Assembly: GCF_000504205.1 (NCBI RefSeq)
Contig: NZ_AZAJ01000001.1
Location: 2,144,879 to 2,208,878 of the forward strand
Reading direction: 5' to 3'
DNA from: Methanolobus tindarius DSM 2278
GTDB taxonomy: Archaea > Halobacteriota > Methanosarcinia > Methanosarcinales > Methanosarcinaceae
Length of the DNA: 64,000 nucleotides
Part shown: piece after piece, positions 29,072-36,106 of the stretch
How the letters are laid out: each line of letters starts with the position of its first letter
Numbering within the stretch: position 1 is the first letter of the stretch
The notes under the pieces: model-generated
Database searches by the model: none
What the model was told of the DNA's origin: nothing
Seen by the model: the letters and a program-made list of their open reading frames with translations, nothing else
Position numbers and translations under genes: made by a program

Positions 29072-29276
29072 GGATTATTATCTCCTGCGGAGAACTATGA
29101 TCCATATTGGACAGTGTAAGCTTATAAAGCTTTACAAGGTGCTGTTAATTGCTATAATTTTTCTGTTTTCCTTTCAGTTATTGGTAAATCATCATGCAGT
29201 GACATGTGTTAGCATGCAACATTCTTCCAGATATCTTTATCAATAATCATTTTGTATGACTTGGCAGGAGATTAAC

Positions 29277-31106
29277 ATGAGCACACGCGAGTACATGCTG
29301 GGAAACGTTGCAATAGCACGCGGTATCGTAGAAGGAGGCGGACAGGTCATATCCGGATATCCCGGAACACCTTCCTCTGAGATCATCGGTACACTGGCAG
29401 CAATGTTGGAAAGAGACTTTTATGTAGAGTGGTCGGTCAATGAGAAAGTTGCCCTTGAAGTGGCAGCAGGTGCTGCAATGGCTGGCGTGCGTTCAGTGGT
29501 CACAATGAAACACGTCGGGTTAAATGTAGCAGCAGACCCCTTGCTCACACTTGCCTACACAGGTGTCAAAGGCAGTATGGTAATAATCGTTGCAGACGAC
29601 CCATCATGTCACTCATCACAGAACGAGCAGGACACTCGCAGGTACTCACAATTCTCACTCATACCATGCTTTGACCCTTCCACACCACAGGAAGCCAAGG
29701 ACATGATACCTTACGCATTTGAATTCTCTAATAAGGTCCAGATGCCTGTTATCTTCAGGCCTACAACCCGTATCTCCCACGGAAAATCCGATATTCAGCT
29801 CGGACCTGTGGAAGAAACCAGGCCTGCAGCAGAGTTTGTAAAAGAACTTGAAAGATGGGTCATGGTGCCAAAGAATGCAAGGATACAGCACCCTCGCCTT
29901 CTTGAATCCCAAAAAATAATGCAGGATGAACTGGAAAACTCTCCGTGGAATTGTCTTGAACTCGAAGACGGTGCAAAGGTCGGAGTAATAGCATCGGGTA
30001 TTGCTTCTGTTTATGCAAAGGAAGCCATCATTAAACAGGGAATCAATGCATCATTCCTGAAGATAGGAACATATCCGATTCCAGATAAGAAGATTCGCAC
30101 TCTTATGGAAAATACAGAGAAGCTAATCATTTTCGAGGAAATGGAACCTGTTGTTGAGGAACAGGTCAGGATAATCGCACAGCAGACTGGCTCAACTGTG
30201 GATATAGTTGGTAAAACGCCAGGTCCGGTTCCAAGAATTTATGAATTGAATACTGATATCTGTGCTGATGTTCTTGCAGAAGTCCTTGAACTTGAAAGAC
30301 CGGATGTCCCTGCAGAAGTCGCAGAAGATTTCGATTACGACAGGTGCAGGATTGACCTGCCAATGCGTCCTCCTGTAATGTGTCCGGGATGTTCACACAG
30401 GGCAAGTTTCCATGTCATGAAAAAAGTCTACGGCAAGGATGCTATCTTCCCAAGTGACATCGGTTGCTACACACTGGGAATCCAGAGTGGCACAGTTGAT
30501 ACAACACTCTGTATGGGTGGAAGCATAACCGTAGCAAGCGGAATGTATCAGGCAGGAGAGAAAAAACCAATCTGTTGCTCAATCGGCGATTCAACATTCT
30601 TCCACACTGGAATGAATGGTCTTCTCAATGCTATCTATAATAAAGCAGACATCACAGTAACTATAGTAGACAACCGCATTACAGCAATGACCGGTCATCA
30701 GCCAAACCCTGGAATGGGAAAGCTTGCAACAGGTGAGCCAACCATTGAAGTTTCCCTTGAGGAATTATGTAAGAGTATGGGTGCTGGATTTGTTGAAAGT
30801 GTTGACCCTTATGACCTTGAAAAGACAGAAGAGGTTTTCAAAAGGGCAAAGGAATACAAGGGAACATCAGTCGTTATCACAAGACAGTATTGTGTCATTG
30901 ATGCAAAGCGTTCCGGTATTCGCAGGAAGCCATTAACTATCGATGCTGAGAAGTGCGTTGGTTGCAAACTCTGTGTAAACCTCGGTTGCCCAGCTATCGA
31001 GTTCGATACAACTACAAAGAAAGCATCCATAAATACAATGTGTACGGGGTGCGGAGTATGTGCAGCCCTTTGTAAGTTCGATGCCATCACGGAGGTGAAG
31101 AAATGA
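29277..31106 (+). CDS. iorA: IorA, indolepyruvate ferredoxin oxidoreductase alpha subunit
   Basis: 609 residues. With IorB it oxidatively decarboxylates aryl-pyruvates from aromatic amino acids (or works in reverse) using TPP and ferredoxin. The N-terminal pyrimidine domain begins REYMLGNVAIARGIVEGGG; the TPP domain has CPGCSHRASF and GDSTFFHTG; the C-terminal ferredoxin part has CVGCKLC and CTGCGVC for two 4Fe-4S clusters. ATG 29277 follows AGGAG by six bases and is preferred to ATG 29256. The stop overlaps the iorB start as ATGA. Confidence 0.96.
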   Translation: MSTREYMLGNVAIARGIVEGGGQVISGYPGTPSSEIIGTLAAMLERDFYVEWSVNEKVALEVAAGAAMAGVRSVVTMKHVGLNVAADPLLTLAYTGVKGSMVIIVADDPSCHSSQNEQDTRRYSQFSLIPCFDPSTPQEAKDMIPYAFEFSNKVQMPVIFRPTTRISHGKSDIQLGPVEETRPAAEFVKELERWVMVPKNARIQHPRLLESQKIMQDELENSPWNCLELEDGAKVGVIASGIASVYAKEAIIKQGINASFLKIGTYPIPDKKIRTLMENTEKLIIFEEMEPVVEEQVRIIAQQTGSTVDIVGKTPGPVPRIYELNTDICADVLAEVLELERPDVPAEVAEDFDYDRCRIDLPMRPPVMCPGCSHRASFHVMKKVYGKDAIFPSDIGCYTLGIQSGTVDTTLCMGGSITVASGMYQAGEKKPICCSIGDSTFFHTGMNGLLNAIYNKADITVTIVDNRITAMTGHQPNPGMGKLATGEPTIEVSLEELCKSMGAGFVESVDPYDLEKTEEVFKRAKEYKGTSVVITRQYCVIDAKRSGIRRKPLTIDAEKCVGCKLCVNLGCPAIEFDTTTKKASINTMCTGCGVCAALCKFDAITEVKK

Positions 31107-31699
31107 GTGCTGAAGGAATATCTAAATTCGATCTTGTCATTGCTGGTGTTGGTGGTCAGGGTACCATTCTTGCATCAGATATAATCGGAAAGGCTGCTGT
31201 AAAGGAAAACATGTCTGTGCGTGCAGCAGAGACGCATGGAATGGCACAGCGTGGCGGTTCTGTAGTAAATCACATCAGACTTGGCTGCGAACTTGGTTCA
31301 ATGATTCCAATGAAAGGTGCTGATGTTCTGCTCGCACTTGAACCTAGTGAAGCACTCAGGTATCTTGAATTCCTATCCGATGAAGGTACTATAATAGTAA
31401 ATACTGATCCGATTCTTCCGGTGACTGTGACCTCAGGACAGTGTACATATCCTGATGTCGATGCAATAATTTCAAAAATGGAAGAAACCCATAAGGTAAA
31501 AGCTTTCAATGCAACTGAGCTTGCAAAAGAAGCAGGTCATCCACAGTCCATGAACGTTGTCATGGTTGGTGCAGTTTCAAGCTACCTGCCGGTTTCCGTT
31601 GATACTCTGGTTGATTGTGCTAAGGAACTAGTTCCCCGGAAGACAATTGATATCAACGTAAAGGCTTTTGAGATGGGCAGGTCTGTAACACAGGGATGA
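31103..31699 (+). CDS. iorB: IorB, indolepyruvate ferredoxin oxidoreductase beta subunit
   Basis: 198 residues forming the gamma-type domain of 2-oxoacid ferredoxin oxidoreductases, with GVGGQGTILASDIIG near the N-terminus and ETHGMAQRGGSVVNHIR. It pairs with IorA, with which it overlaps by four bases (translational coupling). A hairpin with a short T-run ends the two-gene operon. Confidence 0.96.
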   Translation: MSAEGISKFDLVIAGVGGQGTILASDIIGKAAVKENMSVRAAETHGMAQRGGSVVNHIRLGCELGSMIPMKGADVLLALEPSEALRYLEFLSDEGTIIVNTDPILPVTVTSGQCTYPDVDAIISKMEETHKVKAFNATELAKEAGHPQSMNVVMVGAVSSYLPVSVDTLVDCAKELVPRKTIDINVKAFEMGRSVTQG

Positions 31700-31714: not shown

Positions 31715-32006
31715 CTAATCTATATTTTTCTAATTTTGAATTTATATTAGTATTATTGTGCACATAGCTGCAAAAATTTAGTTTTTCCCGTTTCTTTTTA
31801 GATCGAATTATTCTTTAATTATTCTATGCAGAGCATCCGGTTGTTTAATTTTAACTTCCTATTTATTTTAATTACTATATGATTTCTTTCGACATGTGTA
31901 TACTTACTCAGGTATCTTTTTTATATTAATTCTGTTATTTTTAGCAAAGTCTTTAAATTATATTGTCTTATATTATATTGCACCATAAATTTTGGAGGGT
32001 AAAACT

Positions 32007-32621
32007 ATGGTATCAGTTGGTCAAAAACTATTAGATGTTCCTTTCGGGGACATGATTAAAGAAATGGCATTTGCCATTGCCGAGGGTCAGACAGCACTTG
32101 ATATGAATTCTGTCAATGTTGCACAGGCTCTTGCAGAGACAGAGCTAGAGGCTGGAAGTGTAATTCTCTACATAGAAGAAACAGTGGATGAGGATGGTAA
32201 CGTAACTGCAAGTAATGTGGTTACCAATGACCAACCAATGTCCTTGTTGACTTATGGTATGGAGCCACGTTTCTATGAGTTTACTGAATCTATCATTGAA
32301 GTAAAAATGACTATATCAATGAAGAGGGAATACTCAACTGAAAGAAAGTATGGCAGAGAATTCAAATTTACCAATGAATCCAAGATCAAGGGAAGTTACA
32401 AGTCTGGCGGGCTTGCAGGTCTTCTCTTTGGAAAATCAAAGGCAAGTTATGAAAACACTACAAATGTTGCATACACATCTACCTATGATGCAACATATAA
32501 GTCAAAGTACACTTTCAATGAATCAGGTACAAGTCTCCTGAGGACCACTTTAAAGCCAGTGCCTGCTCCGGAAAGAGCTGTTCCGACCGTAAGGGTCAAA
32601 GAGAGCGGTTCTACAGAGTAA
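32007..32621 (+). CDS. Uncharacterised protein A of the PASTA operon
   Basis: 204 residues, soluble, with no signal peptide. An N-terminal helical motif (LLDVPFGDMIKEMAFAIAEG, then QTALDMNS), a central beta pair with EVKMTISM, a Lys/Tyr/Ser-rich repetitive stretch (SYKSGG, KASYENT, TYKSKYTF) and the end GTSLLRTTLKPVPAPER are visible. The same N-terminal, central and C-terminal motifs recur in the next gene, so the two are paralogues. The layout recalls DUF2589-type proteins, but I would not assign that family. ATG 32007 is chosen for GGAGGG at 31994-31999. It is the first gene of a four-gene operon. Confidence 0.75.
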   Translation: MVSVGQKLLDVPFGDMIKEMAFAIAEGQTALDMNSVNVAQALAETELEAGSVILYIEETVDEDGNVTASNVVTNDQPMSLLTYGMEPRFYEFTESIIEVKMTISMKREYSTERKYGREFKFTNESKIKGSYKSGGLAGLLFGKSKASYENTTNVAYTSTYDATYKSKYTFNESGTSLLRTTLKPVPAPERAVPTVRVKESGSTE

Positions 32622-32693
32622 GGTGAATATTTGATATCAATGCAGAGCTTCTGCATTGGTAATCTTTTTTCAAAATAATCAGGAGGTATTCTA

Positions 32694-33101
32694 TTGCCAT
32701 CCATTAGTAGTGAAAATATCGAAGAGGTTCTTGTAAGTCCACTCTCAACAATCCTTGCTGAAATGGGCAAGTCAATTGCACAAACGCAGAAAGCAATGGA
32801 TCGTAACTCAATTGATACTCAGATTGAACTGTCCAGTGATGAAGTACTCAAAGATTACAATCTGGAAGCTACATGGTATCATTTGCCTGAAGTGGATATT
32901 GAACTTAAGATGGCTCTTTCCATGTCATATGAAGAAGAAAAAGATTCAAAAGGTCGTGTCCGCGGATACAAACGAGTTCTGAAAGCAGCACCTTTGAATG
33001 CATCTTATAAATCACTTAATTCCTATGATGTAGAAGGCTCAAGTGTCCTGAAGGCAAAGATCGTATCGGTACCACCATCTTACCGGGTAACTGAAGAATA
33101 A
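32694..33101 (+). CDS. Uncharacterised protein B of the PASTA operon (paralogue of A)
   Basis: 135 residues starting with TTG 32694, which is well supported by AGGAGGT six bases upstream. Motifs shared with protein A, in the same order: SPLSTILAEMGKSIAQTQ with KAMDRNS, the central VDIELKMALSMSY and the ending GSSVLKAKIVSVPPSYR. It is shorter because the repetitive Lys/Tyr/Ser insert is missing. No catalytic or membrane features are present. It probably forms homo- or hetero-oligomers with A, by inference from paralogy. Confidence 0.72.
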   Translation: MPSISSENIEEVLVSPLSTILAEMGKSIAQTQKAMDRNSIDTQIELSSDEVLKDYNLEATWYHLPEVDIELKMALSMSYEEEKDSKGRVRGYKRVLKAAPLNASYKSLNSYDVEGSSVLKAKIVSVPPSYRVTEE

Positions 33102-33117
33102 GTATGGGAGGGGTGGA

Positions 33118-34188
33118 ATGACTGATGTTAGTGAACTCAGGAAAAATATTGAAAGTTTGAACAAAGCAACGACTGCTGCGTCAAAAAGAAAAAGTTATCT
33201 TTTAGCTGAAAGAAGCGTTGCTTCCATTGAGGCCGAATTTAATAATATAAACAAGGAGCTTGTATCAAAATCAGATACACTTGAAAAACTCCGAAAAGAA
33301 AATCTGGCTTTAAAACAGGAATATAATGTACTTGATAGTCGCGTGAAGGATATCATCAATGAAAAGCTGGAGATGGAGAAGAAGCTGGAGCAATTATCAC
33401 GTACAAGGCCAGAGCTTTCCTCAACAAATCTGGTAAGAGCTTTCAGTGATTCTCTTAATAGTATGGATTCCTCTCTAAAAGGAAGTTCCTCAAGGGTCAA
33501 TTATAGTATTAGTTCAATGAACATTAAGCTTAAGACAAACATTGCCATGAATGGAAACGATCTTTGTTTCCAGTTACCTAAAGCTGATGATCTGATTCCT
33601 GCAAGTAATCTGAGTGAGGTGGAATTCACAATTAGCTCATCATCAAAGGCTCCTGAATTTACCAGTTATGAGGATGTACCTGATGTTGTTGGTGTAGATC
33701 TTGAAACTGCAATTGCTGTTATCAAAGAAGCAGGTTTTGTTCAGGGCGAGCTCATTGAAAAGGACAGTGAATTAGAACAGGGCACTGTACTTTCGCAGAT
33801 ACCATCAGGCAATTCAGTTGCAAAGTCAGGTGATGCAGTAGATCTTGTAATTTCAAAGATCACGTCTGTTGAGGTTCCTGATCTGGCGGGTAATACTCTT
33901 GCATCTGCTAAGAAATCACTTGTAACTATCGGCCTATCTTTGGGAAAGGTAACTGAAGAGGTGAATTCCTTAAAAGCAGGTACGATTATAAGTCAGTCCA
34001 TTGAAGCAGGTAGTTATGCAGATATTGGTTCTGCTATAGATCTTGTTGTTGCAAGTTCTAAAACTGAATTTGCTGCAGTTTCAGGAAAAACAACTGTAGG
34101 TTCATCAGTTTTAACACCGGCTTCCAAACCAGTATCTAAAGTGTCTACTAGAATAAGTCCCACAAGGAAATCGGTTTTAAGGAAGTAA
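33118..34188 (+). CDS. Coiled-coil protein with two PASTA domains
   Basis: 356 residues. Residues 3-95 form a charged coiled coil. About 125-180 contain SMNIKLKTNIAMN and SEVEFTISSSS, echoing the beta motif of proteins A and B. Two PASTA domains follow (about 186-246, beginning VPDVVGVDLETAIAVIKEAG, and 251-312, beginning VPDLAGNTLASAKKSL), then a basic Ser/Thr tail. PASTA domains normally lie outside the cell on Ser/Thr kinases or penicillin-binding proteins, but here there is no kinase, signal or membrane segment, so the protein looks cytoplasmic. It lies 16 bases after protein B, with GGAGGGG before the ATG. Confidence 0.8.
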   Translation: MTDVSELRKNIESLNKATTAASKRKSYLLAERSVASIEAEFNNINKELVSKSDTLEKLRKENLALKQEYNVLDSRVKDIINEKLEMEKKLEQLSRTRPELSSTNLVRAFSDSLNSMDSSLKGSSSRVNYSISSMNIKLKTNIAMNGNDLCFQLPKADDLIPASNLSEVEFTISSSSKAPEFTSYEDVPDVVGVDLETAIAVIKEAGFVQGELIEKDSELEQGTVLSQIPSGNSVAKSGDAVDLVISKITSVEVPDLAGNTLASAKKSLVTIGLSLGKVTEEVNSLKAGTIISQSIEAGSYADIGSAIDLVVASSKTEFAAVSGKTTVGSSVLTPASKPVSKVSTRISPTRKSVLRK

Positions 34189-34193
34189 TTGGA

Positions 34194-34439
34194 ATGCCTG
34201 TTGAAACACATCTTGTAAGGGTTGCAGATAATGCAACTCCTTCCCAGATAGAGGGCATTCTAAAAGCTCTTGTAAGTATTGGGGGCCGGGTTGATGTTAT
34301 TGCAAATAAAAGTATAATTGCCACCTTTGATGGCGATTACTCTGAAGTTATCAAACGCAAACCGGGCGTTCTTCTTGTTGGCGGTGTGAATTTCAGGGGC
34401 CGTACTGTGAGAAAAGTTGTTAAACGAAGTTCGCAATAA
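34194..34439 (+). CDS. Small protein resembling the I9 inhibitor/propeptide fold
   Basis: 81 residues. The order HLVRVADNATPSQIEGILKA, then GGRVDVIANKSIIATFDGD, then SEVIKRKPGVLLVGGVNF follows the beta-alpha-beta-beta-alpha-beta plan of subtilisin propeptide inhibitors (I9), including the 'pGVxxV' turn. The C-terminus is strongly basic (RGRTVRKVVKRSS). No subtilisin is encoded nearby, so protease inhibition is only one option; a small assembly or binding domain is another. It starts five bases after the PASTA gene and ends the operon. Confidence 0.6.
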   Translation: MPVETHLVRVADNATPSQIEGILKALVSIGGRVDVIANKSIIATFDGDYSEVIKRKPGVLLVGGVNFRGRTVRKVVKRSSQ

Positions 34440-35092: not shown

Positions 35093-36106
35093 ATGGCAAA
35101 AGGACATAGACCAAAACGAGGTTCACTCGCTTTCAGTCCACGCGTAAGAGCAAAAAGCCACGTACCAAGGTTTAACTCATGGCCAGATGCAGCTGGAGAA
35201 CCAAAGCTCCAGGACTTTGCAGGCTATAAAGTAGGTATGACTCATGTGGTAATGGTAGATGACACAAAGAACAGTCTCACTGAAGGTATGGAGATTTCAG
35301 TTCCGGTAACTGTTGTAGAAACTCCGGCTGTTCGTGTCGCTGCAATTCGTGCTTACGGTAATTCCACTCATGGTGAAAAGGCACTTTCTGAAGCATGGAC
35401 TGCTGATCTTGATGAGAGTCTTGGAAAGTCAATCGTACTTCCAAAAGAGTCTAACACTGAAGAGGCTCTTGCTAAGCTCGAAAGTCTGGTTGAAGAAGGT
35501 AAGGTTACAGACATTAAGGTCATCACATATACTTTACCAAAGAAGCTGACTGGTGTTCCTAAGAAGAATGCAGATCTCATGGAAACAGCAGTAAGTGGTT
35601 CTGATGTAAAGGCAAAGCTCGAGTACGCAAAGTCTGTACTCGGTGCAGAAATCAAAATCACTGATGTATTCAATGAAGGCGCATTCGTCGACGTAGCAGC
35701 TATCACAACCGGTAAGGGTACTCAGGGTCCTGTAAAGAGATGGGGTATCAACCTGCAGAAGAACAAGCACTCACGTCAGGGAAGTCTCAGGCAGATAGGT
35801 ACGCTTGGTCCATGGCACCCAGCTGTCGTCAGGTGGACAATTCCACAGATGGGTCAGATGGGTTACCACCAGAGAACCGAATACAACAAGCGTATTCTTA
35901 AGCTAGGTGAAGATGGAGAAGAGATTACTCCTGCTGGCGGTTTCCTGAACTACGGTCTTGTGCGTGGCGAATACATCCTCATTAAGGGAAGCATTCCCGG
36001 TCCTTCAAAGAGGCTTGTAAGGCTTAGAGATCCAATGAGATCAAAGGTGTCTGCTATGGGTGAACCAGAGATTGTTCACGTAAGTACACAGTCCAAGCAG
36101 GGGTGA
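35093..36106 (+). CDS. rpl3: Ribosomal protein uL3
   Basis: 337 residues, archaeal L3. The basic start [20 protein letters not shown] and the conserved loop reaching the peptidyl transferase centre ([25 protein letters not shown]) are present. First gene of the 23-gene ribosomal cluster; AGGAG lies upstream. rpl4 follows after five bases. Confidence 0.98.

Follow-up and report, generated by a model that had tools for sequence, protein, structure and literature searches.

The window analysed here, the whole stretch of 64 kb, comes from one contig of 3.15 Mb, whose closest named relatives are Methanolobus species. It carries four genes, designated A to D, whose features are as follows:

31970..31999, + strand: AT-rich TATA-like stretch with a ribosome-binding site upstream of gene A; putative promoter, from reading of the sequence
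32007..32621, + strand: gene A; 204 aa; ATG start; ribosome-binding site GGAGGG at 31994-31999
32694..33101, + strand: gene B; 135 aa; TTG start; ribosome-binding site AGGAGGT at 32681-32687
33118..34188, + strand: gene C; 356 aa; ATG start; ribosome-binding site GGGAGGGG at 33106-33113
33400..33672, + strand: conserved middle domain of C, about aa 95-185, with the strand YSISSMNIKLKTNIAMN
33667..34053, + strand: two PASTA domains of C, about aa 184-246 and 251-312
34194..34439, + strand: gene D; 81 aa; small protein with an I9-propeptide-like fold

The intergenic gaps are 72 (A-B), 16 (B-C) and 5 bases (C-D), and the ORF calls bear out the four reading frames, the order and the spacing given in a first-pass annotation of this DNA, with ribosome-binding sites read before A, B and C. 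On the 5′ side lies a gene (29256-31699) that we take from its sequence to be an indolepyruvate ferredoxin oxidoreductase; on the 3′ side presumably begins a ribosomal protein operon, its first gene, read as L3, standing at 35093.

Comparison with other Methanolobus gives dN/dS values of 0.04–0.07 for A, 0.05–0.07 for B, 0.13–0.18 for C and 0.03–0.14 for D; because all values fall within 0.03–0.18, the four are under purifying selection, and A to D are real genes. Hydropathy detects no membrane helix in A, B, C or D, which confirms what had been claimed for all four proteins, and none of the genes of the module encodes an enzyme.

Genes A and B and the DUF2589 family

Across many genomes, tblastn of A regions against B regions gives E values of about 1e-6 to 1e-12, and profile comparison with hhalign gives 98%, rising to 99.8% (E 1.3e-29) with deeper profiles; the profile score is 179, whereas none of 150 column-shuffled controls exceeds 18. 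These values show that A and B are true paralogs, which explains why they have a helix, a central strand and a terminal block in common, the three shared motifs that were originally read from the sequence. The invariant residues are A25, Q28, D32, G84, P87, F89, Y90 and P186 in A and P16, Q32, D36, W61 and S117 in B, and in both proteins the long helix has Q and D at an identical i, i+4 spacing; the role of the invariant residues looks structural.

Single-protein structure prediction, as proposed at the outset, covered B and A, the model of A being poor. The AF2 model of B (mean pLDDT 80.6) has a single 32-residue helix (aa 17-48) and three strands (66-83, 89-100 and 117-124), the longest of 18 residues. 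That of A, predicted with low confidence (pLDDT 61.6), has a similar long N-terminal helix (aa 13-44), a hairpin and two 21-residue beta strands (aa 95-115 and 162-182). A fold search with both models returned no solved relative; a viral model, A0A516MP19, matched at E 3e-3. No relatives of A were found among phages.

In Pfam, NCBIfam, PHROGs and PADLOC, A, B and D match no family over cut-off, nor do their sequences match any solved structure, so A and B belong to no well-known family detectable by these scans. Extending the scan to 24- and 45-member sets, the larger one of relatives of A, likewise yielded no Pfam match to DUF2589 (PF11655). A likeness to DUF2589 in the central strand and the N-terminal helix prompted a profile-profile comparison, for which DUF2589 proteins were gathered from the host phylum and aligned. 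A matches this profile at 96.1% in hhalign (P 3e-9), collinearly across 177 columns, with a score of 63.0 against control maxima of 22.9 (150 column shuffles) and 18.5 (reversed), while for B alone P is 0.001. Neither A nor B reaches the Pfam gathering score for PF11655, and the host genome has no PF11655 match at all. The homology spans the full length of the profile, which identifies A as a remote homolog of DUF2589. The profile searches suggested earlier thus leave A, B and D without a family match over cut-off, and the implied lack of relatives for A had to be corrected.

Archaeoglobaceae carry three-gene operons in which two of the genes encode DUF2589 (L116:6702-8192 and L118:6934-8624). 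The genes AF0414-AF0417 of A. fulgidus, described as DUF2589-related, rise on lactate (PMC3949148); in the literature searched, we found no other mention of DUF2589.

The coiled-coil/PASTA protein C and the small protein D

Protein C consists of an N-terminal coiled coil, the conserved middle domain and the two PASTA domains, which score far above the Pfam cut-off (E 1.5e-21; 76.5 bits vs 23.2) and are the only PASTA matches in the host genome. PASTA domains normally lie outside the cell, where they are known to sense pieces of the cell wall. Among C proteins, membrane-helix-like hydropathy occurs in only one ORF (L131), whose start was probably called too early.

The number of PASTA copies on C proteins varies from 0 to 14 according to a profile built from these repeats. 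Three related Methanosarcinaceae genomes (G079, G101 and G119) encode a second, upstream PASTA-rich protein of C type, with 12–14 copies where complete, and C lacks PASTA in genome G276 (L088) and in Burkholderiales (L183, L203). One Bacillaceae contig encodes a B protein with DUF4332 and PASTA fused to it, beside a C without PASTA; in Amphritea, B and C carry one PASTA domain each. The tail is thus optional and movable between C and B. In several lineages, namely ANME-related archaea, haloarchaea, Bathyarchaeota (by a weak match) and Acidimicrobiia, C ends in a helix-hairpin-helix (HHH_5) or DUF4332 domain; such a tail is absent from C of the host, of Aquificota and of members of the Methanosarcinaceae. 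Outside the operon, Methanosarcinaceae genomes encode a further short protein that combines a coiled coil with a single PASTA domain (L253:2486-2986).

The strand of C that had been described as similar to those of A and B does lie in the expected register, with P 0.003 for B against the middle domain of C (hhalign), but the score is borderline (22.8 vs a null maximum of 21.9) and kinship with A and B is unproven; we do not claim a third copy of the A/B module. In viral contigs, no relatives of C were found.

Profile comparison of D with Inhibitor I9 (PF05922) gives 81% in hhalign (P 1.2e-5) over 59 columns, with a score of 33.1 vs a shuffled maximum of 16.7, and D matches the subtilisin E propeptide weakly (E 0.34). 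None of 17 D proteins reaches the Pfam gathering score for I9, and the host genome has no I9 match. The earlier description of D as I9-like is thus supported: D is distantly related to the I9 propeptide fold. Across the flanks compared, no protease or subtilase is conserved beside D. The gene lies downstream of C in the host and upstream of A in most bacteria, and haloarchaea have a D-like gene after C. It is missing or undetected in Archaeoglobus, Amphritea and Bacillaceae, so the core may be A-B-C alone. At one locus (L187:3717-5900), A, A' and B are preceded by a gene for a glycosyltransferase-like protein that appears to have a D-like domain fused to its C-terminus.

Conservation of gene order and transfer between lineages

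A scan of species genomes returned 192 related stretches, from which 79 loci were kept; they include Bathyarchaeota, Archaeoglobus, Halorubrum, Methanocalculus, Aquificota, Elioraea, Syntrophaceae and Acidimicrobiia, as well as Amphritea, Neptuniibacter, Xenophilus, Polaromonas and Chloroflexi. Gene A, fragments counted, is present in 31/120 Methanosarcinales genomes, and the order A-B-C-D is kept in all 19 extended Methanosarcinales loci that have the module, while the flanks vary, with the ribosomal operon in most Methanosarcinaceae and other genes elsewhere. The order A-B-C-D or D-A-B-C also occurs in Bathyarchaeota, Methanocalculus, Aquificota, Elioraea, Syntrophaceae and Acidimicrobiia, with D-A-B-C in many bacterial loci, including those of Aquificota, Alphaproteobacteria, Syntrophaceae and Acidimicrobiia. 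The neighbourhood survey therefore finds the genes together well beyond the host, across two domains of life, and neither of the outcomes named in the first-pass annotation as refuting it has come about. The module is rare in bacteria, since B was found only in the centre genome among 200 sampled Pseudomonadota.

Within the host genus, A occurs in 9 of the 14 sampled genomes, and PASTA occurs in exactly those nine. The association of A with PASTA among the 120 genomes is strong (Fisher p 1e-18), although it is partly built in, C itself being a PASTA protein. The A and B trees are congruent (Mantel r 0.82, 0/2000 permutations), and in them Methanocalculus clusters with Syntrophaceae, which indicates transfer between archaea and bacteria.

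We found no flanking gene family common to unrelated lineages: the shared flank clusters are antisense shadows of the module itself, these being the widest, or are confined to one group, as is the haloarchaeal D-like gene. Several variant loci should also be mentioned. Decayed A fragments occur in Methanosarcina (L050:9087-9290 and L090:9673-9843), one of them at the usual ribosomal-operon site. Marine Gammaproteobacteria have an enlarged version (L176:3032-10449, L181:3169-12543 and L195:3240-12373) in which A-type genes number four and B-type genes two, accompanied by one coiled-coil gene and two upstream genes of unknown kind. A corresponding five-gene cluster on a Sphaerotilus plasmid is annotated "hypothetical protein" throughout. 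The literature searched contains no publication on the four-gene module.

Proposed role of the module and comparison with known systems

By a narrow measure of confidence, we favour the view that the product of the four genes is a scaffold in the cytoplasm and that together they form a self-contained module able to move horizontally. In its favour stand the gene order kept while flanks change, the congruent trees, the homologies that exceed shuffled controls, the shared presence of A and PASTA, the variable PASTA and helix-hairpin-helix tails, the purifying selection and the want of any flanking family common to unrelated lineages. A and B would form a mixed oligomer through the invariant Q-x3-D helix and the long beta strands, and C would be the stalk that holds it. 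The PASTA tail of C, or helix-hairpin-helix in some lineages, would serve as an exchangeable, length-variable part that recognises or spaces a client, and D may be a small binder or regulatory cap. Since no enzyme is encoded, the module should act by assembly, and since in addition no flanking gene is common to unrelated lineages, it appears to be self-sufficient; the fact that the gene set travels between two domains of life as a unit also suggests a self-sufficient function.

The multi-protein assembly put forward in the first-pass annotation agrees with the conserved unit, the shared A/B module and the predicted cytoplasmic location, and we infer that the proteins assemble physically, while noting that a conserved operon alone is no proof of this. 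The poor model of A, the absence of a solved fold matching A or B, the borderline kinship of the C strand and the lack of D in some lineages weigh against the scaffold. For the PASTA repeats, which had been seen as an internal adaptor, the variation from 0 to 14 copies and the move to B support a role as adaptor or spacer, but the tail is optional and the core would be A-B-C(-D). Since PASTA occurs here on proteins that have no membrane segment, and many of these belong to archaea lacking peptidoglycan, the domain must be put to another use. More tentatively than the scaffold itself, and at less than even odds, we suggest an undescribed kind of intracellular assembly common to archaea and bacteria: DUF2589-like proteins would pair and polymerise on a stalk made by the coiled coil, and intracellular PASTA would form the exchangeable tail of variable length.

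The main rival to the scaffold is a conflict or stress-response adaptor, in which the DUF2589-like proteins would act like the small Trypco-type adaptors of peptidase/NTPase conflict systems and be kept or lost with parasite pressure. The patchy presence within one genus, the inter-domain transfers and the remnants in Methanosarcina would fit such a role, as would D, whose I9-like fold is that of protease propeptides. In conflict systems, Trypco proteins have been reported next to trypsin-like peptidases (PMC7159879), and one haloarchaeal A matches Trypco2 (PF19631) at E 0.011; however, this match concerns a single member, covers mostly the helix and falls below cut-off (16.3 bits vs 24.2). 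Moreover, the module has no conserved neighbour that is an effector, a nuclease, a protease or an NTPase, no trypsin-like peptidase or VMAP/MoxR/vWA genes are shared among its neighbours, and PADLOC, whose anti-phage models include no match for A, B or D, returns only the PASTA of kinases and coiled coils. We consider this explanation unlikely.

A scaffold linked to DNA or the nucleoid, with the helix-hairpin-helix/DUF4332 tails binding DNA and PASTA a mere spacer, is less likely still. The presence of HHH_5/DUF4332 on the end of C in several lineages and on B in Bacillaceae speaks for it, but the tail is wanting in the C proteins of the host, of Aquificota and of the Methanosarcinaceae members, and helix-hairpin-helix domains bind proteins too.

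We regard as very improbable an accessory function in contractile injection systems or tail-like particles. On an Acidimicrobiia contig, a gp19 tail-tube gene (L161:510-938; Pfam E 3e-36) lies directly upstream of D-A-B-C, and an ANME-2-related gene cluster for a contractile injection system encodes a protein of 1214 aa that has about 10 PASTA repeats (L251:8786-12430; genome G058, contig 111), with gp19 tube genes on the same contig. Among the 120 Methanosarcinales genomes, however, gp19 shows no association with A, being present in 7/31 genomes with A vs 34/89 without it (p 0.13), and the host genome itself has no gp19, so that such a general role is already largely refuted. That unrelated small genes lie together here by chance has next to no probability and is refuted by the order held across two domains of life despite different flanks, the A-B paralogy and the congruent A and B trees, with nothing found in its favour.

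The cytoplasmic scaffold may finally be compared with known systems. With Trypco2 systems the likeness is a weak one of a single haloarchaeal A over the helix region; the module, by contrast, stays below the cut-off and has no peptidase neighbour. D resembles Inhibitor I9 and the subtilisin propeptide over the aligned columns but stands alone and below any family cut-off. Like PknB-type kinases and penicillin-binding proteins, C has true PASTA domains over the Pfam cut-off, but it has a coiled coil in place of a kinase or transpeptidase domain and a membrane segment, and its tail, unlike theirs, is optional and ranges widely in copy number. As for the DUF2589 clusters of Archaeoglobaceae, haloarchaea and a Vibrio plasmid, neither a coiled-coil/PASTA C nor D adjoins those examined, unlike in the module; yet A aligns collinearly with their DUF2589, and the Archaeoglobaceae clusters resemble the module in layout, with two DUF2589 genes and a third that has weak B-like profile matches. 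The profile comparisons thus indicate that the module is a divergent relative of DUF2589 clusters, and DUF2589, a domain without function, gains a related gene set with defined, testable partners and layout.
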